This document shows, one piece after another, positions 6,741 to 42,727 of a stretch of 45,607 bases of DNA. The number at the start of each line of letters is the position of its first letter. Position 1 is the stretch's first letter. Both the position numbers and the translations under genes were made by a program. The stretch is from Haloarcula sp. H-GB4 (lineage in GTDB: Archaea; Halobacteriota; Halobacteria; Halobacteriales; Haloarculaceae). A model generated the notes under the pieces. The model was not told the DNA's origin. It saw nothing but the letters and a program-made list of their open reading frames with translations, and did no database searches. The stretch is from the NCBI RefSeq assembly GCF_030848575.1, contig NZ_JAVDDX010000007.1:1-45607 (forward strand), in the 5' to 3' direction.

Positions 6741-6768
6741 AAACGGCGATTTCATACCAATATGCTCA

Positions 6769-6777: not shown

Positions 6778-6793
6778 TATTGTAACCGCGAAT

Positions 6794-7066: not shown

Positions 7067-7092
7067 CCAGATTCACGACTGTCGGCAGGCCA

Positions 7093-7948: not shown

Positions 7949-7952
7949 CGGC

Positions 7953-8266: not shown

Positions 8267-8293
8267 GAAGCCGACGAGTAGGATTCTCTGTTT

Positions 8294-13300: not shown

Positions 13301-14737
13301 AAGACCTTCTGAGACATCGTACACGGAAGAAAGAAGTTCGGATTCTATGTCAATGCCGTTCTGCTCATAGTATGTTCCAACTTCATTTTTTGTCCAATAT
13401 GGAACCACCTGACGATCATCAATTTTTAGCACGTCACGGCCGTCAGATGACAGTTCTCGCCCGACCATCAGAAGACCAAGTGGATCGGGGAAGGTTAGAT
13501 TTCCAATCTCTTCAATAACAGTCCCTTTTATGTCATCAAAGGAGTTCATCCCCTCTGAATGGGGTAACGCATGATCAAGTCCGTCGATTATTATTAAGCC
13601 CTGTTGATGGTGTTCATCAGCCCATTTAGCAACTGTATCTATATGCTCCTGTAACTTCTCTGTGCCAGTCCAGATTGGATATTCGTCCGGTGAGAAGGCT
13701 TCCGGAAATTTTCTCTGAAGTTCTGCTGCTAACTGATTACGAAACCAATTCGGATCAATTCTATCTCTTTTCTGTTCTGGTGTGTCTGTAGGATCATGGA
13801 GATAATACCGAATAGTCTGAACATTTTCTTGTTCAGTAACACCATCAGAGAGTAACTCAATCCCAGTTGATTTCCCGCTTCCCGGGTCACCCTCTATGAG
13901 TCTGCGGTCACCGGGACTGACGAGAGTACCTTGTAAATTATGAACCCAGCTAGGGATGATGCAATCCTCATCGACTGGGAAGTTTTGGGGTATCTCTTCC
14001 GCAGACGGGGATACCTCAAGGCGATCTGCAATAGCCGGACGAGTGAGCTCGTCACCTGGGTCTTCCCGTACTCTCTGCGCAAGACTAATTGCTCGCTTTA
14101 CAAGGGTTTCGGCGCTTCCGATTCGCGGATTTTCTTTTTCACCGAAAATTGGCTGAACACTCTGAAGAATCTCCTGAAAAACTTTTGTCTTCGACAGCTT
14201 GTATTCTGTATCGACTCCAATCCCTTGGCCTAAGTAGGGGACATCGAATATGAACTCAATCTCTGAGTTTTCAGAAACAGTACCTGCGCTACCTTGGATA
14301 GTTCGAGTATTGAACTCAAAATCGCCGAATAGCGATAAGGTCTCTGTTTTGTCCGATAGTTGTATCTCAGATGGACGTGGTTCATTATACGATGTTAATA
14401 CAATGAACCGAGAACCTGCATCTCCTTCTTGCCTGGCTTGAGCTGATTTGACCATCTTCTCAACATTGAGTCGTCCTGATCGATCATTTAAATCAATCTG
14501 TAACAGTCTATAGTCTGGGCTGTGTTTTACTTGAATACAGATGGTCTCACTACCGGTTTCTAAGACGACGTCATCAAATCGATCATCATCGTCGTAAGCC
14601 GCTTCGATTTTTACACTCTCTGAATCACCAAATAGAACGGTTAGAATACAAATACCCCCAATGATATCCTGAAACAGATCCCCGCGTGAAGCTCCCGCCT
14701 TTTGTCGTGATTTTGCTGCCACCTCTGATTCACTCAT
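10301..14737 (-). CDS. Avs-like STAND NTPase with Cap4/DUF4297-type nuclease domain (1478 aa)
   Basis: A large predicted antiviral sensor. Residues 15-110 look like a PD-(D/E)xK nuclease of the Cap4/DUF4297 kind: E45, D55/D56 in RFDDVVLE, and the Q69-V-K71 strand ICIQVKHS. A STAND-type NTPase follows: Walker A GDPGSGKST (283-291), Walker B LIIIDGLDH (381-389), sensor LLMVGREL near 422-429 and a winged-helix-like segment. Beyond about residue 600 the protein is helical repeat, probably TPR-like, where Avs proteins recognise phage proteins. In the Avs (AVAST) family, target binding triggers oligomerisation and the effector domain cuts DNA. The gene stands alone, is AT-richer than the backbone, and lies between an IS remnant and a frameshifted gene, all signs of transfer. 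The ATG at 14737 is preceded by a TATA-like TTCTATACTGG about 25-35 nt upstream. The Avs subtype cannot be assigned by eye. Confidence 0.82.
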   Translation of the reverse strand: MSESEVAAKSRQKAGASRGDLFQDIIGGICILTVLFGDSESVKIEAAYDDDDRFDDVVLETGSETICIQVKHSPDYRLLQIDLNDRSGRLNVEKMVKSAQARQEGDAGSRFIVLTSYNEPRPSEIQLSDKTETLSLFGDFEFNTRTIQGSAGTVSENSEIEFIFDVPYLGQGIGVDTEYKLSKTKVFQEILQSVQPIFGEKENPRIGSAETLVKRAISLAQRVREDPGDELTRPAIADRLEVSPSAEEIPQNFPVDEDCIIPSWVHNLQGTLVSPGDRRLIEGDPGSGKSTGIELLSDGVTEQENVQTIRYYLHDPTDTPEQKRDRIDPNWFRNQLAAELQRKFPEAFSPDEYPIWTGTEKLQEHIDTVAKWADEHHQQGLIIIDGLDHALPHSEGMNSFDDIKGTVIEEIGNLTFPDPLGLLMVGRELSSDGRDVLKIDDRQVVPYWTKNEVGTYYEQNGIDIESELLSSVYDVSEGLPVILSHLLRTAEEEGDRKEGLRNAVADAPEVHGKLEEYYEELWDPTTPRSRDVLSLIAVSQTALESEHVHRILDLPWLQNQTRLDSGVLAHTLEETKPDRYRIFHASFREFVEGALSDDERKSIHQSFCDYYLDQFEKAPDYPTRLRYHAQRGPGLQVLQGLATQDNVLEWWRQGVHIDEIIDALELAFDGAVEEADYFSLLDSIMLGTTANEMLSIYADERLEYFLAIRDEERAIKYLNRIRKNAPGSGSVLEAMQSVSQVWEDKLEPEWLMEWIEEQEGEEHSFDWNPEAYFETAARLLDSDDFWIHAREIVTEGAEEHFTYQVFRGIRENLHHLKNRPSPPEWLFDNPEKTLEAAETIGHHLPNQWQTRFIDEVKSYDDLSPVALHTILVCGAPEHRVEAGLENISFGEPRNQNESYPRFTDAYYVGAILADMGRTPEAVRDAITELADEQPRIRELVAVIGAATTRRSIEMTRRWADAALEILTEILDNHELADPEPQNLERSEYQSILQDTIYEFNEVVEYGSEDLLNRVFSLADSEAYDSFLLNNFARDILRARDEVFDNEELPDVWEEEFRNIMTAPPEGEPPTRELMDLALRAAESDHTKLAEKYYRKAVERSFRYGYHKDRFLGDVWDGLEVIVEDWESHLGTSIQLSNWAVLLHSLTDGDETGHLEYEFLSTLLEEDVIDYSDVASTVTDRGTARRIWRWRLRNPNGITKSELHELIYIQEKWIESSGYSNQYVQYFANAAQIAVQRNWHDEAKYALWSMNKGDFVRDGVDESQATEIQRLADEYGVEIPEDIVADDDGSEGYDSSPDEKPASLSKEIHQILLKHSYDDPVTKHEFEDQPTDDIINAGRAIVNNLGYRPTAAVPIAETLVDRGEQEIAISLLKETIAEKRLLSWHSYGRGRLEELGRVLLELQGDEALQTVLSAWQESFLDTKTNQCIFPQLVWVVKETEGKVAAEELVSYSVRWLSRLFSPHEDYVQQWGNLSSPDIV

Positions 14738-27043: not shown

Positions 27044-27939
27044 CGCCCGATAGCGGGGGCGTCCCCCATCGAGCGGGGGCTTCCTCGGGCGGTGCGACGG
27101 TACTCGCGCACGCGGCCTCGCCGCCGCCTCCGGCGACCCGGGCGGCGGCGAGACAACCGCGCGCACGGACTGGAGCACCAACGGCAACGGCGCGTCGACA
27201 TGGGTCAGTCTGAGAGAGGCTGTGAGAACACTCGTGTCCTGGTGTGTGCGTGGACGTGGGCCAGCCGGCCCGGGAGACACTGGACTGGGTGGCTGGTGGA
27301 CGCGACAGCGCGCGACGCCACCGACAGACTCGCGCTGCTCGTCTGTCGAGCCCTCGTTCGCTACCGCTCACGAGGACGACGGGACGCTCCGCTCGGCGCT
27401 ATCGCGCGCCTCGCGGCGGTCCATCGTGCCTGCAGTAGCGGGCGCGATCCCGGCCTGCCGCCGGGATGCGGACGGGAACCGCTCTTTCGCTAGTCTGTTG
27501 CCAGCGTGCGGCCCAACTGGAGTTCAAGTACGTGAAATGGCATCGAGAAAAAGCGTCTCGTAGAACAGTTCTCATGGTCTATCTTCTTCCAATAGAAATT
27601 CTTTCGATTAGTGGTTAGTATTATCCACGCAAGATTTACTTAGACTTTGTCGAGTGGTTTGAATTCGCATGGCCAGTGAGAACTATTCTCGTCATCTGCT
27701 TTTTTGTTGGTCTTTTCGACGATGCCAGTGGTCAAGATTTTCCTAAGCCATCTGCCGTCGCCTTTCTCCACCTCGTTCGTTGCCGGTCGCCGCGCTAGAA
27801 TTAGTCTCCAGAACCGACATACTGCGTAGTATCAAACACGACTACGGCGGCACCATCGTGACAGTTCATGCTGAGACCACGGTCCAGTGAGGTGCCAATC
27901 TGAGGGTTTAGAATATGGAATCGGCAGAAACTGACATTG
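27044..27939. other. 0.9-kb intergenic region with GC-rich repeat
   Basis: No gene is supported. The left half is extremely GC-rich and includes repeat DR1 (27291-27465). The right half is AT-rich with a short plausible protein end on the minus strand (27801-27900, GTSLDRGLSMNCHDGAAVV) that has no start. CTGAC-ATT-GTCAG (27931-27943) overlaps the end of the membrane gene and may help termination. Confidence 0.4.
27291..27465 (+). repeat. Long direct repeat DR1
   Basis: GACAGCGCGCGACGCCACCG begins about 175 nt of sequence found again at 34699-34863 at roughly 85-90% identity by eye, in the same orientation. The two copies enclose the Argonaute cassette and the genes at 34021 and 34149. Confidence 0.8.
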
Positions 27940-29256
27940 TCAGAACGCCATAAAGAATGCTTGGATGTCGGCCCAGAGGTAGCCGACCACACCAGCCCCG
28001 ACCAATCCGAACAGGAGTCGGAGAATCCATGCCGGCCAGTTCCGGTCCTCGACCATGTTGACCACGTCCCGGACCATCGGCACCGAATCGGTCAGACCGA
28101 AGTCCCTGCTGATATCCTCCAGCCGCCATTCCATGTGCATCAGCAGGAACACTGTAATGCCCTGCACGAAGTGTGACGCATCCATGAACGACGCTGATGG
28201 TGGGTAGGCAATCACGACATCGACTAAGATGAACCCGATCAACATCGCGGCCCCAACCTCGATGATGTTCTTCCGACGCCGGTTTTCCCGAATCGTCTGG
28301 TCTTTCCCCTCAGCTACCTCGTCCTCGTGCTCCTCCAGTTGCTCAGCCGAGAACACACGGATGCTGTTGTCCAATCGGCCGAGCAGTTGGTCAAGCAACG
28401 CGAGTTGCTGTACGTCCGGAGTGAACTCATAGTCGATCTCATCCGCCAGATACAGCTCGAACGGCAATTCGTCGTACAGCCGCTGCCACAGGTGTTGGCG
28501 TATCTCGTTCACGACCTCCTGTGCGAACTTCTCCTCGCTCAACGCGTCCCGCATCGCGTCCTGTTGTTCTTGGAAGAACCAGGCGAGCGGGATCATCTCG
28601 TACTCGTTCAGGTCCTCCTCGTCCACGCGCCGCATCTTCTGCAGCACGTGGCGACACTCTTCGGCGTCGTATTCAGCGACCTCCAGGGCGACAGTCTCGA
28701 CGAATGCCATCCGGTCGTACTCCGTCCACGTCGCCTCTCGATGGCCTTCCACTTCGTCAGCGAGGAAATCGCGGTACTCGTCCAGCGCATCGTACGCCTT
28801 GATGCCGACCAAGGCGCAGTACAGGTAGACGTAGGAATTGAAGAACTGGAACCGCGCCGCGTCCGGCCCGCCGCTCTCCTCGCGTCGAGCGATATCTTCA
28901 TCGATCTGGGCGAAGAACTGGTCCTGGATATCGTCGTAGATCGGACGGCCACGGTCGTACTGTTGGAAGAACTCAGCCATCAAACCAAGGGCTGCGACCT
29001 GGTACTCGTGCGATATCTGGGCGTCATCGAACCAGGTTTCAAGTTCATCGACGATCTCGGCTATATCATCCGTGTGGCCATCGTGGGTCTGTAACGCGAG
29101 GCCGACCCAAGCCGTGCTAAGCGGGTCGCCATACCAGCCGGGCCGTTCCTCTTCCCGGCCGAGAAGCTGGTGGGTCGTCCGATGGATGATGAGCTTCAGG
29201 TCGGGCTGGGACTGCTCTCCCTGCGACTGCTCGCCGGCCGTGGTTAGAGGAACCAT
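27940..29256 (-). CDS. Membrane protein, predicted effector of the Argonaute operon (438 aa)
   Basis: The last gene of the Argonaute operon; its ATG at 29256 overlaps the end of the PIWI gene by 13 nt, so it is co-translated. Residues 1-325 are helical, acidic and soluble (EEERPGWYGDPLSTAWVGLA near the start, a helix-repeat-like middle). The C-terminus has three membrane segments, about 332-351 (VGAAMLIGFILVDVVIAY), 361-375 and 410-430 (LLFGLVGAGVVGYLW). I know of no named domain. In the Sulfolobus SiAgo system a dead Argonaute activates the membrane protein Aga2, which depolarises the cell; the gene order and the membrane tail suggest a similar job here. This is inference from context, and a receptor or anchoring role is possible. 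Confidence 0.7.
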   Translation of the reverse strand: MVPLTTAGEQSQGEQSQPDLKLIIHRTTHQLLGREEERPGWYGDPLSTAWVGLALQTHDGHTDDIAEIVDELETWFDDAQISHEYQVAALGLMAEFFQQYDRGRPIYDDIQDQFFAQIDEDIARREESGGPDAARFQFFNSYVYLYCALVGIKAYDALDEYRDFLADEVEGHREATWTEYDRMAFVETVALEVAEYDAEECRHVLQKMRRVDEEDLNEYEMIPLAWFFQEQQDAMRDALSEEKFAQEVVNEIRQHLWQRLYDELPFELYLADEIDYEFTPDVQQLALLDQLLGRLDNSIRVFSAEQLEEHEDEVAEGKDQTIRENRRRKNIIEVGAAMLIGFILVDVVIAYPPSASFMDASHFVQGITVFLLMHMEWRLEDISRDFGLTDSVPMVRDVVNMVEDRNWPAWILRLLFGLVGAGVVGYLWADIQAFFMAF

Positions 29257-30554
29257 GGGATATCCCTGAGGCGTGGGCTCACCATCCGGCCTATGTTAAT
29301 TTTTGACATACCGTCATCATTAACCTTCTGGGCATTCTCGATGATATCTGCGATATCCTCGGCGTACTTGATTGTGATCGGCATATTTGATCCGAACTGG
29401 TCCTTCCAGTACACCGAGCACAGGTCATAGATGCCCTGCGCGACCTCCTCAATCTCCAGGCTGCCCTCGACTTCCAGCTCGATCGGGACTGGCGATCCCG
29501 GGCGGAAGTTGCGGCGGCCGCCCGTCATGACGAATCCCTTGTTCCCGCCGGTTCGGATCCACAGCCCACGTTGCGACAGACCGGTTTTGTGCCGGTCGTC
29601 GTAGATCCGGAAATCGTGGCTGTCGTTAAGATGCGCCAGCGTGACGTCGAGGCTATCGAACTCGTCCTCTAACCGTTCCTGTGCGTCACGCTCCGCCGGG
29701 CCGATCCGCTTGTAGCTGTGGACCACGATATGCCCCGGTGCGTTCTCTTGCTGGGCATACGTCTCGGCGGCCTCCACAATTCTCTCTGTCAATTGGTCGT
29801 TAAACGAGTCGTAAGACCTGGTCGCCTGCGTCGAGTCGAACCAGAGGAAAGCGCCGTTGCTCTGGTAGGCGGCAGCGAACCCGAGTGTCCGTGTCGTCCC
29901 GCCGACCCGGCCGGCGCGGTACTCGCTTTTCCCGACGCCGATCACCAAGTCGACCGGTGACTGGGGCCGATGGATGACCCACGGCGTCCCACCGAGCTTC
30001 GCGTAGATCTGGCTGACAACATTGACAATCAGGTACTTCAGCGGGACGTGGTGCGGTGAATGCCGCCGAAGCTTGTCAACAAGTACCATCTGGGTAGGAA
30101 TACCGGCCTGCGTGAGAAGCGCCTTCACCGCCCAGTACGGCGACCGGTATCCGCGGCTGCGCATCTCGTTCGACATGAACACGATCGCCAGATCGTCATC
30201 GGCGGCTTGGATATCGTCGACGGCGTCCACGTAGGTATCGAGGTCAGTGTCGTCCAGTTCGATGGTGTTCGCGACGGAGACGCTGTCCATTCGGAAGAAC
30301 GACCGGAAGCCGTTCGGGTAGTAGCTCGAGTGGCCGTTGATCAGCGCATCCTGGAACCCTTCGGCGTCCGACCGCCAGCTTGCCGGGTACACGATGGTGA
30401 ACGTGGCGTCGGTGAAATCGCGAGACGTGGAGGAGTCGAACGGACCGTTCCTGCCCAGCCCTTTACCGACGTTACTGTTCGTGATGCTGGGGTTGGTGTA
30501 GTCGAATCTGTGGGTCGGTGAATCGAGTTGCTCGGCGTGGAACTGAGTGGGCAT
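29244..30554 (-). CDS. Argonaute MID-PIWI subunit, catalytically inactive (436 aa)
   Basis: A short prokaryotic Argonaute half. It opens with NVGKGLGRNGPFD, the segment that begins the MID part of many pAgos. MID pocket residues for the guide 5' phosphate fit the Y-K-Q-K pattern: Y140, K144, Q155 (in GIPTQ) and K185. The PIWI domain starts at DLVIGVGKS (202-210). NgAgo has IGID here, so the first catalytic Asp is G208. A later position equivalent to the HRDG Asp of NgAgo is Y281 in HIVVHSYKR, so target cleavage is not expected. KTGLSQRGLWIRTGG, PVPIELEV, MPITIKYAED and the C-terminal IPWFL match the PIWI end. It starts 3 nt after the N-lobe gene and overlaps the membrane gene. Like Archaeoglobus AfAgo it should need a separate N-lobe subunit. 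Confidence 0.88.
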   Translation of the reverse strand: MPTQFHAEQLDSPTHRFDYTNPSITNSNVGKGLGRNGPFDSSTSRDFTDATFTIVYPASWRSDAEGFQDALINGHSSYYPNGFRSFFRMDSVSVANTIELDDTDLDTYVDAVDDIQAADDDLAIVFMSNEMRSRGYRSPYWAVKALLTQAGIPTQMVLVDKLRRHSPHHVPLKYLIVNVVSQIYAKLGGTPWVIHRPQSPVDLVIGVGKSEYRAGRVGGTTRTLGFAAAYQSNGAFLWFDSTQATRSYDSFNDQLTERIVEAAETYAQQENAPGHIVVHSYKRIGPAERDAQERLEDEFDSLDVTLAHLNDSHDFRIYDDRHKTGLSQRGLWIRTGGNKGFVMTGGRRNFRPGSPVPIELEVEGSLEIEEVAQGIYDLCSVYWKDQFGSNMPITIKYAEDIADIIENAQKVNDDGMSKINIGRMVSPRLRDIPWFL

Positions 30555-30557
30555 GGG

Positions 30558-31556
30558 TCAGGTGAACACCTCCATGGGCTGGTCGGCGATAGTAAGCGTC
30601 TGCCCGGTCAGCAGTTCGACGTCCCGGTCGATCTGGTCCATCAGATCGTTCAGCTGGCCGAGTTCGTACTTCGCCTCCCGCTCCGAGGCCTTCTCCTCGC
30701 TCAACCGGTCCGGGATACCAAGACGGCCCCGACCGATGTCTTCGATGATGCCGGAGTGGCGGCTGCCGTACTTGTCCGTCGCCCACTGACGGATGTTCGC
30801 GTAGCTGGCTTCCATCGCGACTCGTTGGACCGGCGGGTTGGCGTCGATACCGTCGACAGCCGGTGACAGCGACACGTACCGGCCGGACCCGTCTGCAGCA
30901 TACTGGCACGCCTCGCCGCTACCAGTGAATCCGTCGAACTCCCCGATCAGCCCGTCATGGCCGTGGAACGTGCAGTCCCCGTGTGTACAGTCAGCAGGGC
31001 AGTCCATCTTAAGCCAGAACTCTCGATTGTTGACGCCGTCCAGCACGCCTTCAAGCGGTTCCGTGAAGATGTTCGTGGTCGTGTACGCGAAATTGACGCC
31101 GACGAACGGCCCCTGGTCCGGGAAATTCCAGAACCGTGACCGGACCTTCAGTCCTTGACGGATCTCTAGGCCGTCCACCGGTTCGGCCACGGGATCGGTC
31201 AGGTAAACCTCGTTCACCCGGTGGGTCTGGGCCTCAGTCTGGTCGACCTGCAATGGGGTGAAGTCGTGGTTCTCGATAAGATGGCGGATTACGCTGTACT
31301 GCACCAAGTTCGAGTAGATCCAGAGATAGTCTTGCCACGGAACGCTGTTCTGCTCGTACTCGGTCTCATCCTCGAGCACCTGCCGCCCCTCGTCGTTGGT
31401 CGGGACGGCGATCATGGGCGAGGCCTCGGTGTCGGTCGTAACGGAGTCGTACCGCTCGTCGATGATCTGAGGAATATCGCGGTTGTTAGAGGGATATCGC
31501 CAGATCCGGAGGTCGTCGCCCGGAAGCTGGCACTCGTACACGTTCAGATGGACCAT
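30558..31556 (-). CDS. Argonaute N-lobe subunit (332 aa)
   Basis: The gene before MID-PIWI. It looks like the front part (N-L1 and a PAZ/L2-like region) of a long Argonaute split into its own protein: VNEVYLTDPVAEPVDGLEIR, then GLKVRSRFWNFPDQGPFVGV and NFAYTTTNIFTEPL, similar in order and pattern to the N domain and linker of NgAgo. After it comes an unusual Cys/His cluster (C186, C190, C195, H198, H200) that could bind zinc. Residues 270-310 (SGIIEDIGRGRLGIPDRLSEE) are helical. The 3-nt gap to the next ORF implies equal production. AfAgo-N plays this role in Archaeoglobus. Sequence similarity is weak by eye, so the assignment rests on position, length and a few motifs. It has its own promoter (31583-31589). 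Confidence 0.72.
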   Translation of the reverse strand: MVHLNVYECQLPGDDLRIWRYPSNNRDIPQIIDERYDSVTTDTEASPMIAVPTNDEGRQVLEDETEYEQNSVPWQDYLWIYSNLVQYSVIRHLIENHDFTPLQVDQTEAQTHRVNEVYLTDPVAEPVDGLEIRQGLKVRSRFWNFPDQGPFVGVNFAYTTTNIFTEPLEGVLDGVNNREFWLKMDCPADCTHGDCTFHGHDGLIGEFDGFTGSGEACQYAADGSGRYVSLSPAVDGIDANPPVQRVAMEASYANIRQWATDKYGSRHSGIIEDIGRGRLGIPDRLSEEKASEREAKYELGQLNDLMDQIDRDVELLTGQTLTIADQPMEVFT

Positions 31557-31582
31557 TCATCCTTGTATACTGATAGACACGG

Positions 31583-31589
31583 CTTATAT
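31583..31589 (-). promoter_or_regulatory. TATA-like box of the Argonaute operon
   Basis: ATATAAG on the minus strand lies 27-33 nt before the ATG at 31556, the distance expected for a leaderless haloarchaeal transcript. It separates the Argonaute genes from the PIN gene upstream. Confidence 0.55.
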
Positions 31590-31632
31590 CTTGCCGGTTC
31601 GACGCCCGGTAGCACACCGCTTGGGCCGGCCG

Positions 31633-32427
31633 CTATGCGAACTCGTCTTTCAGGTAGAGGACGCGGAGATCGGTGACGTTGCTTATGACCTCGCGGCTGT
31701 TGTAGATCCCGACTTTCCCCGATACCGGGGTACCGTCCTCGTACCGCACGACATCCCCGTCCTCGTCGCGAAGTGCATCGCCTTTGTCGCCGGTGACCAT
31801 CCGCGTTAGCAGGCCTTCGTCGCACATATATGAGGCGTCACATACGACCTCGATGTCCATATCGTCGGACAGAGTACGTTCCAATGTAGAAACGCGCGAG
31901 TCCGGGATATCGCCGCGTTCCGGACCGAGGTTCACTCGCTTCCGGAGTTCGTCCTTTCGCTCCCATGCGTAGTCCTGCAGGCCCTCGACCAGCAGTTTCT
32001 GGATCTTCCGCACGTTCTCGACAGTCACCTCAAGGTCCAGTTGGTCCAGTTTCTCCTCGAAGTACCTGCGGATATCCGGTTTCGAGGACGGCTTGATATG
32101 GTACGACTCAACGAACAGCTCCACGGCAGTCTCCATGTCCAGATCGTCGCAGTTGAAGATCGCGTCCTCGAACAAGAACCGGCTGTCACGGAGTTCCGCC
32201 ATCTTTGATTTGAAGTTCCCCTTGTCCTCGTTCCAGGAAAGTTCGGAGCGGTCCCACTCGTATTCGATCTCGTCATCGGTCACCGGTCTGTTGCAGTACT
32301 CGAAGAAAACAGTGTCCCCGATGTAGAGCTCATTGTCCGAATCGAGCAGGCGGTTAGCGTCGCTGTGCCACCAATCCTGGAAGAAGGTGTATCCGGTCAG
32401 GCAGTTCGTGTCCAGATAGTACCGCAT
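31633..32427 (-). CDS. PIN-domain nuclease (264 aa)
   Basis: Probable metal-dependent ribonuclease of the PIN superfamily. It begins RYYLDTNCL (D6) and has E43 in VFFEYC. Near the C-terminus are VVCDASYMCD (D197) and the VTGDKGD strand (D214, D217), so the acidic residues for metal binding appear complete. The domain is larger than VapC toxins because of a helical insertion of about 140 residues and ends with a VSGKVGIYNSREVI segment. Its ATG directly follows the stop of the 32428 gene (zero gap). A 76-nt gap and promoter separate it from the Argonaute genes. It may be the toxin of a pair with the upstream gene, or an effector of the Argonaute complex. Confidence 0.72.
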   Translation of the reverse strand: MRYYLDTNCLTGYTFFQDWWHSDANRLLDSDNELYIGDTVFFEYCNRPVTDDEIEYEWDRSELSWNEDKGNFKSKMAELRDSRFLFEDAIFNCDDLDMETAVELFVESYHIKPSSKPDIRRYFEEKLDQLDLEVTVENVRKIQKLLVEGLQDYAWERKDELRKRVNLGPERGDIPDSRVSTLERTLSDDMDIEVVCDASYMCDEGLLTRMVTGDKGDALRDEDGDVVRYEDGTPVSGKVGIYNSREVISNVTDLRVLYLKDEFA

Positions 32428-33306
32428 CTATTGGCTGGGAGCGAATCCGACAAGTGCCTCGGCAACAGCGTCCTGTGCATCACGTACGACCTCATTCCGT
32501 TCGAGCTGCGCTCCGAACTTGGTCTGCTCACGCTCTTTATTTTCAAGTCGAGCCCGCATCTGCTTCTGGTAGCTGTCCACGTCATCCGAGATGGCATCCC
32601 TGACCTCTTCGACGGTGAGATCGCTGTGTTCCTGCTGACCGACCTCGATCATGAATACCGCCCAGAACGCGTCACAGAGGCTAAGCATCTCGTTGACGCT
32701 GTAGAACTGGTCGGTCTGGTCAAGCTCGGTGCTCATCACTGTGTACCAGAGATGAAGATCGGATTCCAAGTTCGGAAACTCGTCCGTGGGGAAGGTCTTG
32801 ACTACGTGGGAGAGGGTGCGCCGGATGTCGTCCTTATTATAGCCGTCGTCAAGGAGATCCGGGTGGTTGTCCGCGGCGGTGCGGAGCTGCTTATCAAGCT
32901 GCCGAAACTCGCGCTGGACATCATACGGGGCGTCCTCGTACATCAGGTCGGTCAGCGGTTCTAACCCGCCAATCTGATAGTACCGGAGCAGCACTTCCTG
33001 CACCACGTCTCGGACCTGGTCGATTTCGTTATCCGATGCGTCGATGGAATCTGGTTCGACAGGGCAGACGACCTGCGAACCGCCGTCTTTGGATTTTTCG
33101 ACGGTCACAGAAGAGTCGGAGATGGGTGTCACCGTACCGTACCGGTACCAATAGTATGGAATGTCAGCTTTGATACCTTCTTCTTCCAGTTCCTGCTTGG
33201 TGAAGTACAGCAGCTTGTGAAACTCCTTCTCCCGAAGTGGGCTGTCGTATTTCCTCTCATCAAGGAGGAGCGCGGTTACGTCGTCCACCCCGAACTCGGG
33301 AGTCAT
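32428..33306 (-). CDS. Hypothetical protein, possible partner of the PIN nuclease (292 aa)
   Basis: The first gene of the cassette. Its stop touches the PIN start codon, so they are coupled and likely function together. The N-terminal region SPLREKEFHKLLYFTKQELE, then YYWYRYGTVTPIS, resembles in layout the Panacea/SocA-type antitoxin module (KLLYF...YG...G), although that is a pattern match only. The C-terminal half is helical and charged, with coiled-coil potential at the end (YQKQMRARLENKEREQTKFG). The ATG at 33306 is preferred over 33390, since a TATA-like ATTTAAG (33332-33338) lies 26-32 nt upstream. Antitoxin, adaptor or structural subunit all remain possible. Confidence 0.6.
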   Translation of the reverse strand: MTPEFGVDDVTALLLDERKYDSPLREKEFHKLLYFTKQELEEEGIKADIPYYWYRYGTVTPISDSSVTVEKSKDGGSQVVCPVEPDSIDASDNEIDQVRDVVQEVLLRYYQIGGLEPLTDLMYEDAPYDVQREFRQLDKQLRTAADNHPDLLDDGYNKDDIRRTLSHVVKTFPTDEFPNLESDLHLWYTVMSTELDQTDQFYSVNEMLSLCDAFWAVFMIEVGQQEHSDLTVEEVRDAISDDVDSYQKQMRARLENKEREQTKFGAQLERNEVVRDAQDAVAEALVGFAPSQ

Positions 33307-33331
33307 ATGTGTGACTTCTACTGCCTTCTCA

Positions 33332-33338
33332 CTTAAAT
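33332..33338 (-). promoter_or_regulatory. TATA-like box of the PIN-pair transcript
   Basis: ATTTAAG on the minus strand is spaced 26-32 nt from ATG 33306, which fits a leaderless transcript and supports that start. Confidence 0.5.
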
Positions 33339-35654: not shown

Positions 35655-37880
35655 TTACATGAACTCAGATACGTCGCGCTCCTCCTCTTTTGACTCAGTT
35701 TCGTCCCGCTCTTCAGTCTCGTTTGAGTCTCCCTCTGCATCTGATTCAGTGGGTGAGTCACCGCCTTCCTGCTCGGCAGATTCCGCCCCACCTAAGCTGG
35801 GATCTGGGTCCGGATCAGAGAAGAGTCCCCCGGTGTTGTCGTCGGACTGCTGGTCGTGATCGCCACCGTCGTACTCATTTTCTTCATCTGATAGGTCTGG
35901 GCGGTCTGTGTCCGGAGATGTGACGGCAGTGTTTGCTGTTGTCTGGTCGAGTGGGTCACTGGAATCGTCGTCGCCCAACCCGTCTGTCGCGTCGACGGTC
36001 GGCTCGACTTCAGGGTCACGATCCGGGCCACTATCTCTGGACTCATCGCCGTCGGTCTCACCAACTGACCCACGGAGTACATCGTCAAGTCGAGCCCGAG
36101 TAAACGAGAACCAACTGTCGTTCTCTATGTCGGTGTCATCTTCCGTTGGCTCTGGTTCCGAACTGCTCGGCGACTCCGCGCCCTGCGCCGGGAGGCTATC
36201 GCGAACGTCCGCCAGTTCGTAGGACTGCCCATGAACCCACGTCGTCCGAGAGACGGCAACGCACTCACCGGGCTGGAAGTCTCGGAGCAGGCCGGAGGTG
36301 ATCGGCGTTTTGTCCTTCTCTTTGTACGTGTCCCGAGCCTGCGTTCGTGGGTTCTCGCCGCGCCCCTGATGACTCATCGACACCATCTCGGAGCGATCAT
36401 ACTGACGGCTTTCGCCGAGTTCGTCGAGGATGAAGTCCGTCGACTCGCTGTCACCCGGACCGAAGTAGACTCCTTGCGGGCAGTTGCCGACAATCCCAGA
36501 GATCGTGCTGTATGTGTCTTTGAGCTGGCCGATTGTCTGCACGCCGACCAGTGCCCGACCCTTGTGTTTCCGGCCTCGGGCCGTGAGGTTCGTTACCTGC
36601 GTGAGCGCCGGCAGCGCGTCAATCTCGTCGAGGATATGGACCGTCGGATTCGAGGCGTTCATCGCGTAGCGGATCGACCAGTCTACGAGCAGTTGGTACA
36701 TTGGCCCGAGCGTTTCCAGTTCCGTTGGATTCGAGTCGATAATGAGGACTCGGCCTTCCGGGTTCTCGATGTACTCTTGCAGCGAGAACTCCCCGTAGTC
36801 TCCGAAGTCGCCGGTGAAGACGGGATCGACATTCTCCTTGATCGTCTGGTAAACGTTCTGTGCGCCTTTCCCTTTATCAGGGTCGATATGACCCGAATCC
36901 AGTCGGTCGAACTCGTCAAGAGCTTTCTTGAGGGCAATGTGGCCCTCGTTGAGTAGTGAGACGATATCGGCGTGACAGAGCGCATGGCGGCGATTGTTCT
37001 TTTTTGCGCTAAGATGCAGATACATCAGCATCTCCACGAAGGTCTGTTTGGCGGGCCGGTGGAATGGGTCGTGACCGTCGGCTTCGCCGAAGATCGCGCC
37101 GGCGACCTCACGGAAGTCTGACTCGTCGTAGGCGTCCTTGAACAAATTCCAGACCACGTCGCTATCCTCGTGGCGGATGCGCTGAACCTCAAAGCCCAAG
37201 TCCTCGTAGAATGCTTGGAAGTCCTCGCCGGTATCGTGAGCGACGACCGCCGTGTCACTGTAGTACGGGAACTGGTAAGCCAGCAGCTTCATCATCGACG
37301 TCTTCCCGCTTCCAGTCTCGCCCACGACAGCTGTTGAGACATCTTGATCGAGCGTGAACGGCATTTCAGCCTCGTTGTGTTCGTGAGAGACCTCTTCCAG
37401 CGGGACGACGGACTCCCCGTCGTCGTGGTCCCACTGGTTCATCGCGAGCATTTCCGGCGAGGTCCGGCGGAGCAGTTCCCCGGAGAACACGATACCGATT
37501 GAGATAGCATACAAGATCACCGTATTCGAGTACGAGACCATCGGCAACGACAGTCCGGGCACAGTGAAGTCAGCAAACAGTGTCCCGACCGAGATGGCAG
37601 CCAGAACGTGTGCGAACGGGAACAGCAGTGCGACGCTGGGCGTCTGGACAAGCATGTCGTAGAAGAACGCCGCGCTAATGAGTCCGAACCCGAGGTAGAT
37701 GTAGCGCCATGCCCAGAACCGCTTCGGAAGTATCTTGTCGCTATCGACGATCATCGGCGGGAACAACAGCATAAATCCGGCCCAGACGAACCCAACGACG
37801 TTGTCGTACTTGAGGCTATTCGGGACTTCGCCGGAGCGTTGTCCTGGTGGTGCAGAGGAACTCGAACTCACTGCCACCAC
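35655..37880 (-). CDS. VirD4/TraG-like coupling protein (741 aa)
   Basis: Type IV coupling ATPase that would bring the relaxase-DNA complex to the transfer channel. N-terminal membrane segments lie near residues 27-45, 58-76, 83-104 and 118-134. Walker A GETGSGKT (187-194) and Walker B VHILDEIDAL (414-423) frame the TrwB/VirD4 motor domain, with the LTARGRKHKGRALVGVQTI segment typical of the family. The last 180 residues are a very acidic, low-complexity tail. The start at 37880 overlaps the relaxase gene by 13 nt, making it the last gene of a compact transfer operon. Confidence 0.88.
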   Translation of the reverse strand: MVAVSSSSSAPPGQRSGEVPNSLKYDNVVGFVWAGFMLLFPPMIVDSDKILPKRFWAWRYIYLGFGLISAAFFYDMLVQTPSVALLFPFAHVLAAISVGTLFADFTVPGLSLPMVSYSNTVILYAISIGIVFSGELLRRTSPEMLAMNQWDHDDGESVVPLEEVSHEHNEAEMPFTLDQDVSTAVVGETGSGKTSMMKLLAYQFPYYSDTAVVAHDTGEDFQAFYEDLGFEVQRIRHEDSDVVWNLFKDAYDESDFREVAGAIFGEADGHDPFHRPAKQTFVEMLMYLHLSAKKNNRRHALCHADIVSLLNEGHIALKKALDEFDRLDSGHIDPDKGKGAQNVYQTIKENVDPVFTGDFGDYGEFSLQEYIENPEGRVLIIDSNPTELETLGPMYQLLVDWSIRYAMNASNPTVHILDEIDALPALTQVTNLTARGRKHKGRALVGVQTIGQLKDTYSTISGIVGNCPQGVYFGPGDSESTDFILDELGESRQYDRSEMVSMSHQGRGENPRTQARDTYKEKDKTPITSGLLRDFQPGECVAVSRTTWVHGQSYELADVRDSLPAQGAESPSSSEPEPTEDDTDIENDSWFSFTRARLDDVLRGSVGETDGDESRDSGPDRDPEVEPTVDATDGLGDDDSSDPLDQTTANTAVTSPDTDRPDLSDEENEYDGGDHDQQSDDNTGGLFSDPDPDPSLGGAESAEQEGGDSPTESDAEGDSNETEERDETESKEEERDVSEFM

Positions 37881-38623
37881 CCACGCTTACGTTCGGGTTC
37901 CTGCTCGCGTTCAAGATCAACTTCGGGTTCGCGTTCAGTTGCCGCCTGTTCTTCGGCCCTCTCCCCAGCACGTTCTGAGAGTGTCTCAGTTTGGCGCTCA
38001 TCGGTCGCTTTCTCAGCCGTGGGCTGTCCGGCGTCTTTCTGCTGACTCTTCTCAGTCGCCCGTTTGAGCGCTTTTTCCGCTTCGGGGTTCAGCGCTAGTT
38101 CTGCCTCGTGGTACTGCTCCCGTGCTTCTTCATCCACGACCCGGCCAATGTCCTCGGGAGAATCACGGGCGGCAGCCGTTGGGTCGCGTGTTCGAGCGGG
38201 TTCTTCAAACGCAGTCGCTGCTTGTTCGCGCATCTGTCGGATATCTTCCCGACCCATTTCTAATTCCGCACGCTCGCCAGTCGCCGCGATATGTGCATGG
38301 GGAAACTCTGTGTCTCGGTGAACACCATACACGCAGTCGGTTGTCGGTTGTTGAGCCAGCCCGCTATTCACCAGTTCCCGAGTGTTATCACGGACTTCCT
38401 CTGGCGAATATTGTCCTGTGGGATCTGGCGAGACGATTACATGCCGCTGGAATCCGAACTCGCGGCTCTTGTCGACAAACCGATTCACCTCTGAGTCAGA
38501 CAGTTCTCGCCCGGCTGGGTTTCGGAGGTCAACTGTCACGCCGGCGTCCTGTTCGCGATCACGCTGAATGTAATCGACGAGGTTCCCTGCACCACCCTCC
38601 TGATAATCTGTTTTCAGCATCAT
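37868..38623 (-). CDS. Relaxase, MobA/VirD2-like (251 aa)
   Basis: Candidate transfer-initiating nuclease. The N-terminus MMLKTDYQEGGAGNLVDYIQ supplies the possible nucleophile Y18. The HUH-like metal motif is in VHRDTEFPHAHIAA (H102, H109, H111), preceded by the RHVIVSPDPTGQYSPEEV strand, the usual order in MobA/VirD2-type relaxases. The protein is short; residues 150-251 are charged coiled-coil or disordered, so there is no helicase or primase domain. The ATG overlaps the stop of the upstream small gene by 4 nt (ATGA). Confidence 0.82.
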   Translation of the reverse strand: MMLKTDYQEGGAGNLVDYIQRDREQDAGVTVDLRNPAGRELSDSEVNRFVDKSREFGFQRHVIVSPDPTGQYSPEEVRDNTRELVNSGLAQQPTTDCVYGVHRDTEFPHAHIAATGERAELEMGREDIRQMREQAATAFEEPARTRDPTAAARDSPEDIGRVVDEEAREQYHEAELALNPEAEKALKRATEKSQQKDAGQPTAEKATDERQTETLSERAGERAEEQAATEREPEVDLEREQEPERKRGWWQ

Positions 38624-39093
38624 ACACTCTCACCTGCCGGCTCGGCGGCAGTCGAGGCATCTGACTCAGGGTTGCCTTCCTCGTCTGGTGTTTGCGATTC
38701 TGTGTCTGGATCTCTCCCAACATGCTCGCCGGCAAATTTCAGCGCAAGCCGTCGCTGTTCAGCTGAGTAGTCATCTTGAATCAATTTCCAGATCGCGATA
38801 GTGTATGCTGTCCGGACTTTTTGGACGGTTTTTACCTCCTCCATTGTTCCAGACTCAAATTCTTCTAACAGCTCTGTCACCTCGCGCTTTGCCTCCTCCA
38901 GCAAGACTTCGATTTTTGTGTTAGTGCTGTACCGCTGATACTGACTTTCTCCAGTCTCCCACTCAATGTATTCCTCGATAACCTCGTGTCCGTATTCGGA
39001 GGTGGATGTCCCCGCGGCGTCAGCCAACTGGTCAAACAATTCTTTGTTCTCTTCACTCGTATAAATCTGGAGTAGAGTGTCTCTCTCAGTCAT
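38620..39093 (-). CDS. Relaxosome accessory-like protein B (157 aa)
   Basis: Second small protein before the relaxase. LLQIYTSEENKELFDQLADA, then GTSTSEYGHEVIEEYI, resembles the N-terminal half of ribbon-helix-helix/MobC-like proteins. A helical middle (EVLLEEAKREVTELLEEFES) and an acidic disordered tail follow. It is coupled to its neighbours by ATGA overlaps at both ends (39090-39093 and 38620-38623). It is related in layout to the 39090 protein, suggesting a diverged pair that binds oriT or the relaxase. The role is inferred from position. Confidence 0.65.
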   Translation of the reverse strand: MTERDTLLQIYTSEENKELFDQLADAAGTSTSEYGHEVIEEYIEWETGESQYQRYSTNTKIEVLLEEAKREVTELLEEFESGTMEEVKTVQKVRTAYTIAIWKLIQDDYSAEQRRLALKFAGEHVGRDPDTESQTPDEEGNPESDASTAAEPAGESV

Positions 39094-39467
39094 TCCTGAC
39101 CCTCCTTGTTTCGGATGGTTTCAACCTCATCCTCTAGTTTATCTGTCGCTTCTTCCATCGCAGTAGCGCGCTTGTCTGCCGGGAACTCAGAGGAAATTAA
39201 ATCCCACAGAGCGACCGAGTAGAACAATTCCTGATCCGTGTCAACGCTTGTTGCTTCGTCAACGTCTTCTACGACGGCATCAGCGATGTACTCCAGTTCC
39301 GATCCAAGGTTTAATTCCCCCGCACGCTGTTCCTGTAGTTCGCTCGAAATACGCCGTTCCGCAGCTTTCAGAATGTACTCTGAAACCCCTTCACCCGCTT
39401 TGTTAGCCTGCTTCACGATCTGTTTTCGCTGCTCTGCACTCATCCGAATTGTAACTTTTTCACTCAT
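39090..39467 (-). CDS. Relaxosome accessory-like protein A, RHH-type (125 aa)
   Basis: Small protein beginning MSEKVTIRMSAEQRKQIVKQ, then GEGVSEYILKAAERRI: a strand, helix, turn and helix that fit a ribbon-helix-helix (MobC/CopG-like) DNA-binding domain. The C-terminal part is helical and acidic. MobC-type proteins melt or mark oriT for the relaxase. The ATG at 39467, 6 nt after the VirB4 stop, is preferred over GTG 39476. The gene order VirB4, A, B, relaxase, coupling protein supports a relaxosome role. Confidence 0.7.
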   Translation of the reverse strand: MSEKVTIRMSAEQRKQIVKQANKAGEGVSEYILKAAERRISSELQEQRAGELNLGSELEYIADAVVEDVDEATSVDTDQELFYSVALWDLISSEFPADKRATAMEEATDKLEDEVETIRNKEGQE

Positions 39468-39472
39468 ATGAA

Positions 39473-42400
39473 TCACTCCGTAGTGCCGAACTCGAGATCA
39501 GTCCCTGCCTCGATACCACCATCAGCGACAACTGCATCCGGCTGTGTCTGGTCAAGTGCTACAGACACCACGTCCACCAACTCCTCTTCGCTGAGTCCGT
39601 TGAGGACGTGTTCAGCCTTCTCAGGCGATAATCCGTGATTCGTTAGCTCTTGCTCGACCGCTTTGGAATGGACGAACTCTTCGAAGTCAGCAGCGCGAGA
39701 GTCAACCTCGTGAGCAACAACGTCGAGCGCATCTTCCGCGTCAGCGTCGAGGTCAATAATCTGCTTCTCTTCCCACGAGGTCTTGATCGTCAGTGGGTAG
39801 TCACCATGTTCGTCGACGCGAACCAGCGCTTGTGAGTAGCCCTGACCGTCGCCTAGTGACTCTTTCCCGGCTTCCGCGTGCTGGATGTAGGACTGCTGTT
39901 CGCTCGTCAGTCCAGCGCTTTTCGCTGTCTCATCACCTAGCTCTGGCTCGCGGTGATGGACCTTGATCGGGCACATTCCCGCGATTTCCTCGGCTGCACC
40001 CTTGTCCTCAAACTCGGAGAGCGTCTGGGACAGCATCACCAGCCGCAGCCCGGCGTGGCGCTGGTGCCGAGCAATCTGGTTCAGCGACTCCAGATTCGCG
40101 TCGTCGTTGAACAGGTAATGGGCCTCATCGATGATGATCTCGACCTTCTGCTGCATATTTTTCGCCTGCTGGTACAGCGTCGACAGCAGCAACTGCATGA
40201 TGAACGACTGTTTGCCGAGGCCACTGCCCGAGCCTTCGACTTGCTGGAGGTCCAGATAGACGGCCTTGCTGCTGTCGTCGATCAGCCGCAGGTCCGACTC
40301 TTTCGAGAGATTGCCGAACGTACTTCCCGGCCGGAACGGATGCAGCGCAATCGAGAGTTCGTTTGCGTACTGCTGGATTTTCTGCTGGGAGGACTCCGTC
40401 GTCGCTCCAGGGAACATTCCAGGCTCTTCCTGGAGGCGGTCAACGACTTCTAGGAAGTCACTCAGATCCGGCGAGTTCTCCGGCGTGTGCGTCGACGGGT
40501 CCGCTGGGTCGATATCGGACTCCGAGAATATCTTGTCGATCAGGAACGTGATCAGGCCGCTGTGCATCTCCAGATCGACATCCCGCGACTGCAGGAAGTT
40601 CTCGATAACCCCGTACACTTCGTCTTTCTTCGCTGAGACGGGCTGCATATCCGGGGACTGTTCAAGGACATGAGGCGGCGTCGGATGCATCTCGCACGGG
40701 TTCAGCGGCGTCTCGCCGCTGATCGTGATGGTCTTTGCGTCCAGCATCTTCGCGCTGCCGTGCATATCCCCGACCGGGTCGATGTAGATCTGCTTGACAT
40801 CCGACCGCTTTTTCAGCATCCGCATCGCCCGAGCCTGCGTGCCGTGTGTCTTTCCGCCGCCGGGCATTCCAGTCACTAGCTCTGAGTGGCCGGTTTCCAG
40901 TTCCCACGGGTCGATCAACAACGAGGAGTCGTTGTGTCCGTGCAGCCCGTACTCGATGCCGTCCTCCATCCGCAGGTAGTTCGACGAGAACGGGAACAGC
41001 GCTCCAAGGGCTTCCCCAGTCATCGACGAGAGCCGGTTCCGCCCGAGTTCGTTGGCCCCGATCGGCGAGACTGTCACCAGTCCGGCTTCCTGCCGGCGGG
41101 TCGTTCGCTTAACCCCACAGTTCGACGGGGAGTCCCGCAGTAGCGTTTCGAGCCGGTTCGTTTGCTTTCGGAGTTCCTCTTCAGTCTTGGCAGTCAACCG
41201 GATGAACGCGCCGACACGGAACAGCGACGTGTGGTTCCGCCGGACCATCTGCCGGATGTACTTCGCCTGATTGACCTCCTGCTCGATGTCTTCCGCTTCC
41301 AGCTCCCCCTTGTCGTTTTGCAGCATCTTCAGCGAGGAGATCCACTCCTTCATCACCGACACTGCTGTATCAGCGTCGTATGGGTCGATATGGATTGAGA
41401 CATCGACGGCAAGCTCCGTATCCAGCAGCAGTTGTTCCAGCATCCCACTCGTCGGATGCTCCGGATACGTCTCGATCCAGAAGCACCGTGTGTACGTCTC
41501 TTGGTCGATCAGAGCATGGTCGGCTTCCCACTCGATATCTGTTGGGGCGACCAGTGACCGGTGGTTCTCTCCCGGTCTATGCAACTGGGAGACGAAGTCA
41601 GTCTCGTCGACCTCGTAGTCGGTCCCACCGACGTCATCGGTCTCCATGCCCTCCGCGGCGTCGTGGGCTGCGGCACCCTCGCCGTGCTTGATGAGTTCCC
41701 GCGCGGAGTATGTCACCGGGGAGACGGAGGCCGCCTCTTCGTACTCGCGTTCCGACCGGGTTTCGCAGGCCCAGTAGTCCTCGGTCAAGTGGGCCAGTTC
41801 GTGGGGGCTGACCGACCGGCTGCGACACCGGAACATATTGTTGACTGCTCTGTCGACGGTTTCGAGCCGGTCGTGGAGTTTCTTGGCCTTGAACTCCTCT
41901 CGCTCGGCGTCAGTGAGCGTGTCACTGTCGAATCGAGTGAACAGCCGACCAATGACCGGTATCCCAGTCAAATAATCCGCGATGGAGTCGCTGTTCATCT
42001 GGAGGTCGTGGATATCATCGTCGGTCACCCAGACGATGATGTAGTACTTGCGCTGGAGTTCAGTCTCAGTCTCAACGTTGCCGCTGTCGTCGGTGTAGCG
42101 GTTGACGAACTCCATGAGGACTCCCCGGAAGATCGAATGGCTCTCCGCGTCGGGGTCGTCGAGTCGGTCGACGTGTGCCTGGATATGGGACTCGTTATCG
42201 ACCTCGGCCGTCGTGACGTGGAGTTTCGCACGGCCAGTCAGCGATTCAGACAGGCGTGTGAGTGACTTGACGGCTTTCTCCCATTTCTCGTCGTCCTGCA
42301 ACGACATATTGGCGGGCTCGACCTCAACCGCGCCGACGTACGCTCCGTCGACGCGCTCAATGCCGTGGGGCATGACCCGCTCTAGTCGCGTGACCTGCCG

Positions 42401-42727
42401 AGTGTCCTGATTCCCTTGGCCGTGAGTGTACTGTCGCTTTTTGACGAGCCAGAACAGTTTGACTCGCAGCCACTCTGTCAGGCGATAGTGGTCCGGGCGG
42501 ACTTTATGCAGGATGTACAGGAACACTTCCACGATCGCTGTGAGAGCCAACGTTGGGAAGAACAGCGCCGCTGGCACGAACGGCATTCCCATCGCGACGA
42601 GGAAGCCAAACGGCGGGATGAGGAACAGGATGAGTTCCCCCAGCGTGTAGTCTCCCCAGAAGTTGGTCGAATCTCCGAGGGATTCGTGAATGATGTTCGT
42701 ATTGTATTCGTCTTGTGAGTCAGCCAT
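39473..42727 (-). CDS. VirB4-like conjugation ATPase (1084 aa)
   Basis: The main motor of the type IV secretion channel. Two membrane segments at about 29-48 and 53-73 precede a VirB4-type body, so the protein may include a VirB3-like part fused at the front. Walker A is GMPGGGKT (620-627) and Walker B IIIDEAH (864-870), followed by an arginine-rich helix and VMLSQTLSEF. The overall length exceeds bacterial VirB4 (about 800) because of the membrane part and an acidic C-terminal extension. Its start overlaps the stop of the VirB6-like gene by 1 nt (TAATG). Confidence 0.88.
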   Translation of the reverse strand: MADSQDEYNTNIIHESLGDSTNFWGDYTLGELILFLIPPFGFLVAMGMPFVPAALFFPTLALTAIVEVFLYILHKVRPDHYRLTEWLRVKLFWLVKKRQYTHGQGNQDTRQVTRLERVMPHGIERVDGAYVGAVEVEPANMSLQDDEKWEKAVKSLTRLSESLTGRAKLHVTTAEVDNESHIQAHVDRLDDPDAESHSIFRGVLMEFVNRYTDDSGNVETETELQRKYYIIVWVTDDDIHDLQMNSDSIADYLTGIPVIGRLFTRFDSDTLTDAEREEFKAKKLHDRLETVDRAVNNMFRCRSRSVSPHELAHLTEDYWACETRSEREYEEAASVSPVTYSARELIKHGEGAAAHDAAEGMETDDVGGTDYEVDETDFVSQLHRPGENHRSLVAPTDIEWEADHALIDQETYTRCFWIETYPEHPTSGMLEQLLLDTELAVDVSIHIDPYDADTAVSVMKEWISSLKMLQNDKGELEAEDIEQEVNQAKYIRQMVRRNHTSLFRVGAFIRLTAKTEEELRKQTNRLETLLRDSPSNCGVKRTTRRQEAGLVTVSPIGANELGRNRLSSMTGEALGALFPFSSNYLRMEDGIEYGLHGHNDSSLLIDPWELETGHSELVTGMPGGGKTHGTQARAMRMLKKRSDVKQIYIDPVGDMHGSAKMLDAKTITISGETPLNPCEMHPTPPHVLEQSPDMQPVSAKKDEVYGVIENFLQSRDVDLEMHSGLITFLIDKIFSESDIDPADPSTHTPENSPDLSDFLEVVDRLQEEPGMFPGATTESSQQKIQQYANELSIALHPFRPGSTFGNLSKESDLRLIDDSSKAVYLDLQQVEGSGSGLGKQSFIMQLLLSTLYQQAKNMQQKVEIIIDEAHYLFNDDANLESLNQIARHQRHAGLRLVMLSQTLSEFEDKGAAEEIAGMCPIKVHHREPELGDETAKSAGLTSEQQSYIQHAEAGKESLGDGQGYSQALVRVDEHGDYPLTIKTSWEEKQIIDLDADAEDALDVVAHEVDSRAADFEEFVHSKAVEQELTNHGLSPEKAEHVLNGLSEEELVDVVSVALDQTQPDAVVADGGIEAGTDLEFGTTE

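Follow-up and report, generated by a model that had tools for sequence, protein, structure and literature searches.

In Archaeoglobus fulgidus, a long-B prokaryotic Argonaute (pAgo) is built from two chains, AfAgo-N and AfAgo, whose structure has been solved and whose guides are RNA; several split systems of this sort have a downstream effector gene, and transmembrane (TM) proteins are among these effectors (PMC10954474). The BPAM effector is membrane-spanning through its C-terminal 106 residues (EabAgaM; PMC10620215). The antitoxin domain Panacea, which pairs with many different partners, has been proposed to be a sensor, and the validated NetFlax nuclease pairs include PIN/VapC-like toxins (PMC8832971, PMC10440598). 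Here we analyse a cassette of five genes on the complete 45,607-nucleotide (nt) contig NZ_JAVDDX010000007.1 (G000:C7) of Haloarcula sp. H-GB4, hereafter the window, in which genes for a remotely Panacea-like protein and a putative PIN nuclease precede a split Argonaute and a membrane protein. Judged from its sequences, the Argonaute/membrane half is of the kind already known from AfAgo, SiAgo and BPAM. The PIN half, a pair of genes that stands beside Argonautes, is the discovery.

All five open reading frames (ORFs) lie on the minus strand at 27940-33306. The first-pass annotation of this DNA had given their transcription order as unknown protein, PIN, N-lobe, MID-PIWI and membrane protein, all on one strand, and the ORF coordinates bear this out. 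The features of the cassette are listed below, with protein lengths in amino acids (aa).

32428..33306, minus strand: Panacea-like protein (putative antitoxin), 292 aa; aligned by hhalign with PF13274 proteins and kept in four cassettes
31633..32427, minus strand: PIN-domain nuclease (putative toxin), 264 aa; relatives match PF01850; residues D6, E43, D191, D197 and D214
30558..31556, minus strand: probable N-lobe (N-L1-L2-like) subunit of a split long-B Argonaute, 332 aa; weak PADLOC pAgo_II match
29244..30554, minus strand: MID-PIWI subunit, 436 aa; PF02171, MID pocket, C-terminal part of pAgo_II
27940..29256, minus strand: candidate membrane effector, 438 aa; soluble N-terminal part and C-terminal hydrophobic spans
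33332..33338, minus strand: TATA-like box (ATTTAAG) for the pair's unit, some 31 nt ahead of the ATG; from the alignment of four cassettes
31583..31590, minus strand: TATA-like box (GATATAAG) for the Argonaute unit, some 32 nt ahead of the N-lobe ATG; from the alignment of four cassettes

The Panacea-like and PIN genes abut (0 nt), 76 nt separate PIN from the N-lobe gene and 3 nt the N-lobe from MID-PIWI, and the MID-PIWI and membrane genes overlap by 13 nt. We took the ATG at 33306, the start also used by relatives, as the beginning of the Panacea-like protein (the mechanical ORF begins at 33390). Across the four cassettes, the T-A-T and A-G positions of the Argonaute-unit box are invariant and the pair's box is partly so. 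Since separate TATA-like boxes precede the N-lobe and the Panacea-like genes, we infer two transcription units, the pair and the trio, each with its own promoter.

The same five genes in the same order were found in three further genomes: in Halegenticoccus soli (L031, on a 936-kb contig), in G288 (L032), a genome from another family, and on the Haloplanus rallus plasmid pMBLA003601 (L128). Identities to the window, in the order Panacea-like, PIN, N-lobe, MID-PIWI and membrane protein, are 84.2/89.0/84.0/94.5/90.6% for L031, 71.8/71.2/68.4/74.1/68.7% for L128 and 57.6/43.6/43.9/43.7/32.0% for L032. With the order kept at identities from 94.5% down to 32%, the five-gene arrangement is not chance. 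At the DNA level, L031 and L128 each resemble the window in a single block (window 27942-33312 and 27939-33338, respectively) that ends at the cassette edges, with nothing else matched in the DNA compared; L032 matches it in pieces inside the cassette only, and L032 and L128 have a 383-base stretch in common (78%) several kb upstream. Because the similarity stops at its edges, the cassette seems to move as a unit. A search with the window MID-PIWI protein matched 46/391 haloarchaeal genomes, strongly only in G000 (9e-304) and G288 (1.5e-119); the next best matches, at 1.3e-18 and below, lie mostly in longer open frames.

The pair also stands beside a second kind of Argonaute system. Three-row profiles found the PIN protein in 37/391 haloarchaeal genomes and the Panacea-like protein in 46/391; a weak Panacea-like match in G361 carries an in-frame stop. 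We fetched 34 short-pAgo loci with the pair (L093-L126) from 33 genomes, leaving out the G361 and second G341 pieces. PIN adjoins the Panacea-like gene in 34/34 of these, counting L126, which is cut by a contig end, and L119, whose Panacea-like gene is in two pieces, and in 4/4 long-B loci, so that the two genes form a module. By gene calls, the pair is divergent from a 414-492-aa gene across a gap of 71-167 nt in 33/34 loci, and a pAgo gene follows that gene in 32/34 (split in two in L109). When profiles were run against all six frames, a search that picks up fragments too, restriction endonuclease (REase)-APAZ was detected in 34/34 loci and pAgo in 33/34; the pAgo of L117 runs past the contig end. 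An apparent truncation of the L120 pAgo was rejected, as the protein aligns at full length and the shortening is a start-codon miscall. The gene next to the pair is Aga_REase_Archaea according to PADLOC, at 9.4e-171 to 1e-58 in four examples, and the one after it is pAgo_I, at 2.1e-145 and 6.3e-144 in two examples. For the two genes of the pair itself, PADLOC has no meaningful match. In the REase part D46, E63 and K65 are invariant in 15 rows, presumably as a PD-(D/E)XK site would require. Two side observations concern the pAgo genes: the short pAgo system is interrupted by a 330-aa gene in L109 (4820-7311) and by a 388-aa gene in L123 (10840-14792).

A 15-row REase-APAZ profile, which was built from pair-adjoining genes and could favour such genes, matched 33/391 haloarchaeal genomes, and all 33 have the pair beside it. 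Below the L119 fragment (1.5e-57), its sole other match, at 1e-14, is the remnant of a split gene in G065. Four genomes have a PIN match and lack REase-APAZ: G000 and G288, with the long-B cassettes, G080, with an 84-aa fragment, and G324, where the match falls inside a 471-aa, apparently unrelated protein. PIN relatives occur on 19 plasmid records and Panacea-like relatives on 21; among five regions examined, L129, L132 and Haloarcula pNG600 (H. marismortui, L130) have both short-pAgo genes. Distances between pairs correlate with those between pAgos (r 0.87-0.91 across 15 non-redundant loci, with 0/2000 permutations as high), which shows co-inheritance of pair and pAgo in a comparison made without species-tree control; 28/34 short-pAgo loci were within length limits for four genes, and removal of near-copies left the 15. 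These haloarchaeal loci (pAgo_I plus Aga_REase_Archaea, SPARDA-like) thus share with the window the same Panacea/PIN pair, here divergent, and differ from it in using a nuclease-APAZ effector where the window has an N-lobe and a membrane protein.

The first-pass annotation had also named the lack of a link between the two halves of the cassette in other genomes as a ground for refuting it; the link is present in 4/4 cassettes, the PIN half being linked in addition to a second pAgo type in 33/33 genomes. Its suggestion that the set as a whole might be new survives in part: the Argonaute and membrane half is of the split long-B AfAgo/SiAgo kind (PMC10954474, PMC10620215), and the novelty lies with the PIN half. 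Within that half the PIN assignment stood, with relatives matching PF01850, while the supposedly unknown protein is recast as Panacea-like and the pair turned up in short-pAgo, DISARM and other loci as well. We found no description of a Panacea-like/PIN pair beside Argonautes in the open-access literature, surveyed largely at the level of titles and abstract openings, and nothing there that joins Argonaute, PIN domain and haloarchaea, SPARDA/APAZ and PIN, or Panacea and Argonaute; the available parts of PMC4158269 and PMC11442185 do not describe the pair. The literature on DISARM-linked pairs was little searched, so that for these novelty is not established. A 2018 pAgo survey defined operons by same-strand genes (PMC6299218), and a divergent pair would therefore not be counted.

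PIN assignment of the second gene product is supported by its relatives. Of 21 family members, 10 matched PF01850 at E<=1, the best of them at 4.2e-5; every other family drew a match from one member at most. The acidic residues are nearly all kept, D6 and E43 in 20/21 (with E or D in the rest), D191 in 21/21, D197 in 20/21 and D214 in 21/21. The PIN protein has no usable sequence match in the PDB. The four long-B-linked PINs have in common an insertion of 23-24 residues, at about residues 218-240, that is absent from 17 short-pAgo-linked alignment rows; it could mark partner specificity.

For the Panacea-like protein, profile comparison points to a remote homology of its N-terminal approximately 140 aa to SocA/Panacea. 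The Pfam model PF13274 itself matched none of the scanned relatives (E<=10 or E<=1), and there is no usable PDB sequence match. The comparison set consisted of eight archaeal proteins fetched as PF13274 matches, seven of them over Pfam's cut-off, from 22 chosen genomes; none had been found in an earlier Panacea search of 21 relatives. Against this set, a 61-row family profile gave an hhalign probability of 96.2% (E 2.4e-9, E-values being those of single comparisons), with the alignment covering 1-145 of 159 Panacea positions, and the distant relatives alone, in a profile that also left out L145, gave 96.8%. Five unrelated control families reached 0.1-0.2% and the reversed family profile 1.2%. 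The C-terminal half, by a low-confidence model, is probably a helical extension. With a remotely Panacea-like domain in one protein and the conserved acidic positions of a PIN nuclease in the other, the two genes resemble a toxin-antitoxin module. The pair resembles PanAT in having two genes, a Panacea-like domain and a nuclease partner (PMC8832971, PMC10440598), and differs in that the window protein lies below PF13274 detection, has a long extra C-terminal part and is tied to defence systems.

The MID-PIWI protein certainly contains a Piwi domain by its match to PF02171 (1.8e-16). Its nearest solved structures in a PDB profile search are EcAgo (4.3e-33), RsAgo (2.2e-26) and AfAgo (3.5e-14). 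Residues Y140/K144/Q155/K186 align with the MID pocket residues Y463/K467/Q478/K506 of RsAgo, so that the 5'-phosphate pocket appears intact. The first PIWI Asp position is Gly208, and RsAgo also has Gly there; in the GxD motif, which we take to carry the first catalytic Asp, the protein reads G-V-G, as in RsAgo at that first Asp position, the only one compared. Entries 5awh and 6d8a are called RsAgo here, following PMC10954474. In the 724-position PADLOC pAgo_II model the MID-PIWI protein covers positions 287-724. The N-lobe protein matches the complementary part, with residues 3-170 on positions 2-157 (E 1.8e-4) in the window and residues 3-320 on positions 2-276 (E 5.2e-4) in L032; its homologues in L031 and L128 have no PADLOC pAgo_II match (2/4 matched), and it has no usable PDB sequence match. 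The N-lobe identity is thus supported but weakly. Because the two proteins match complementary parts of the same model, they read as the two chains of a split long-B Argonaute of the fAfAgo kind: a MID-PIWI-only chain closest to long-B pAgos, with the 5'-phosphate pocket and the Gly described above, and a separate, weakly matched N-L1-L2 gene upstream.

The membrane protein has two strong hydrophobic C-terminal spans, at about 329-358 and 409-429. A simple hydropathy scan found such spans in 4/4 homologues, two or three in varying number and place. Single-protein scans of Pfam, PADLOC and NCBIfam returned no family for it, and its homologues have no PADLOC match. Being encoded next to the Argonaute and having a C-terminal TM region, as do the BPAM and SiAgo-Aga2 partners, it is a candidate effector of the Argonaute unit. 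Both the MID pocket and these spans agree with the earlier suggestion that a guide-binding Argonaute works together with a membrane effector.

Compared with fAfAgo (AfAgo-N/AfAgo/Af1317), the window has the same layout of an upstream N-L1-L2 gene, a MID-PIWI chain and a downstream gene of helical/TM type (PMC10954474). For the MID-PIWI chain the likeness extends to sequence (3.5e-14), whereas for AfAgo-N and Af1317 it is by layout, and the N-lobe is 250 aa there and 332 aa in the window. No Panacea/PIN pair is described with AfAgo in the available part of PMC10954474. SiAgo-Aga1-Aga2 of Sulfolobus islandicus and BPAM likewise combine an inactive Argonaute with a C-terminally membrane-anchored partner (PMC10620215), and the window protein is likened to Aga2/bAgaM by its hydrophobic C-terminus and gene position. 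The BPAM Argonaute is described as full-length, whereas that of the window is split, and the accessible part of PMC10620215 describes no toxin-antitoxin pair with either system. Membership of the cassette in SPARTA, SPARSA or SPARDA was rejected, as no APAZ/nuclease/TIR/Sir2 gene was found in it; the REase-APAZ profile has no match anywhere in the source genome.

The pair belongs to a wider family. Eleven distant haloarchaeal Panacea-like relatives, one of them on a plasmid (L131), are followed by a gene that is PIN-like by eye in 11/11 cases, though that of L140 has 123 aa only. In L134 (pair 6608-8258) the order is DrmE-unknown-PIN-DrmA-DrmB, in L138 (pair 5395-7040) the pair is divergent from DrmA-DrmB, and in L137 (pair 6700-8362) it adjoins a DrmD/BREX-type helicase and a methylase. 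The DISARM loci L134 and L138 thus resemble the cassette in having a related pair within or beside them, and differ in the clade of the pair and in having no Argonaute match. In the wider phylum, Panacea-like relatives occur in 28/392 genomes; 17 loci were fetched, 16 had a recognisable Panacea-like gene and in 10/16 a PIN-like gene stands next. L149, L150 and L156-L159, five of which come from one family (f12), have no PIN-like gene directly after the Panacea-like relative. Six-frame searches of L131 and L133-L161 found pAgo or REase-APAZ in 0/30, with profiles that are blind to some pAgo kinds, and two scans of viral contigs found no relative.

In a 61-row tree (L119, L150, L156-L159 and L160 left out), the 39 pAgo-linked rows form one clade with SH-like approximate likelihood ratio (SH-aLRT) support of 99, and the DISARM-linked pairs sit in its sister clade. 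Within the pAgo-linked clade, the four long-B rows also make up a clade of their own (99), whose position among the short-pAgo rows is supported at only 80-88. A tree constrained to keep the short-pAgo rows in one group is 3.4 log units worse (approximately unbiased (AU) test, p 0.39). As this grouping was not rejected, a handover of the pair from short pAgos to the long-B system was not kept.

Beyond the cassette, a family scan of the window identified Orc1/Cdc6, ParA, a relaxase, a coupling ATPase and, failing Pfam's cut-off at 9.5e-4, a VirB4-like ATPase. On account of these genes, the contig looks like a conjugative-type plasmid or element. The TrwB/TraG-like coupling ATPase, the MobA/VirD2-type relaxase and the VirB4-like ATPase, of 1084 aa, lie together at 35655-42727 on the minus strand, and this conjugation-type block suggests a transferable element as the carrier of the cassette; the PLSDB class of all 19 plasmids with a PIN relative is non-mobilizable. 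A 1478-aa protein at 10301-14737 (minus strand) has a P-loop NTPase region matching PADLOC Avs1b (2.1e-8) and is a possible second defence gene of STAND type. At 1398-3320 (plus strand) this plasmid-like contig encodes a protein of 640 aa in which two stretches are of ABC ATPase type and which has the general look of ABCE1/RNase L inhibitor.

The reading that we prefer, and in which we place about even confidence, is abortive defence by an Argonaute sensor with a membrane effector and an antitoxin-held, RNA-cutting second arm that also stabilises the cassette. The mobile haloarchaeal cassette would work as two transcription units. The two Argonaute chains, encoded by one of them, would probably pair into a single sensor of the fAfAgo/long-B type, loaded with a guide and catalytically dead. 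On recognising invader nucleic acid, this sensor would activate the membrane protein, and that protein would permeabilise or depolarise the cell in an abortive infection. The Panacea-like/PIN unit would be a toxin-antitoxin module and constant companion of inactive haloarchaeal Argonautes; the most likely use of this module, in our view, is as an RNA-cutting second arm, held in check by the antitoxin, that reinforces the Argonaute response and also keeps the cassette from being lost easily. The Argonaute half of this scheme follows from published relatives, and the pair's role from linkage and remote homology; guide type, effector activation, toxicity, neutralisation and any signal between the two units are what we infer.

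Several observations weigh against this reading. Taken alone, the window PIN has no Pfam match and stayed without a name in single-protein PADLOC and NCBIfam scans as well, and the window Panacea-like protein has no Pfam, PADLOC or NCBIfam match at E<=1; the pAgo-linked rows alone reach just 77.6% against Panacea, and one of 29 block-shuffled controls reached 52.7%, with a best shuffled score of 34.0 against 63.4. Structure models of the PIN and the Panacea-like protein are poor (predicted local distance difference test (pLDDT) scores of 42.8 and 45.2), and therefore neither fold is confirmed. L119 is decayed, with remnants of the pair and an APAZ fragment without pAgo. For BPAM, contact of the membrane protein with Argonaute went undetected, and the test plasmid was not needed for killing (PMC10620215). 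The separate TATA-like boxes would allow mere hitch-hiking of the pair, and in 2/34 loci (L109 and L123) the pAgo genes are interrupted and the pair is full length; the pair can therefore persist without a working pAgo.

These last two points would equally be expected if the pair served addiction only; it would then be a toxin-antitoxin module of the ordinary sort, stabilising plasmids and pAgo islands without any part in the Argonaute response. The copies on 19 plasmid records fit this as well, as do the distant relatives that occur, in haloarchaea as well as in other archaea, at loci apart from these pAgos (0/30 with pAgo or REase-APAZ) or in DISARM loci. A generic module should, however, stand beside many kinds of cargo, and the pAgo clade, with its 39 rows and SH-aLRT of 99, holds only two Argonaute systems, with 33/33 REase-APAZ genomes carrying the pair; we consider addiction alone rather unlikely. 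Constant linkage to pAgos, together with the relatives linked to DISARM, might instead reflect a guard that watches over the Argonaute system and causes cell death once a virus or mutation disables it, much as CreTA reportedly guards CRISPR-Cas, but L109 and L123 carry the full-length pair with interrupted pAgo genes, and this seems very improbable.

A different role would be guide biogenesis, in which the PIN RNase, steered by the Panacea-like protein, makes 5'-phosphorylated RNA guides for inactive Argonautes. In its favour, a single RNase family accompanies two Argonaute architectures, short pAgo with REase-APAZ and split long-B with a membrane protein, which have little in common beyond guide-dependent sensing; the 5'-phosphate pocket of MID is preserved; and AfAgo uses RNA guides (PMC10954474). 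The Panacea homology points to a toxin-antitoxin role instead. The sister clade includes DISARM-linked pairs, which counts against guide-making as the family's original job. DISARM is not known to use a guide, and other pAgos load guides without a PIN/Panacea-like gene. We regard guide biogenesis as improbable, and give equally little credence to its extended form, in which the pair would be a guide-RNA factory serving two unlike haloarchaeal Argonaute sensors, overlooked since it is mostly divergently transcribed.

How inactive Argonautes are supplied with guides and how suicide effectors are kept safe are open questions. In genetically tractable hosts, the pair makes a connection of Argonaute immunity with toxin-antitoxin modules directly testable. 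Its fixed position beside two Argonaute systems (33/33 and 4/4) suggests that the functional unit in haloarchaea extends beyond the two or three genes catalogued so far, and that operon surveys confined to one strand would miss it.

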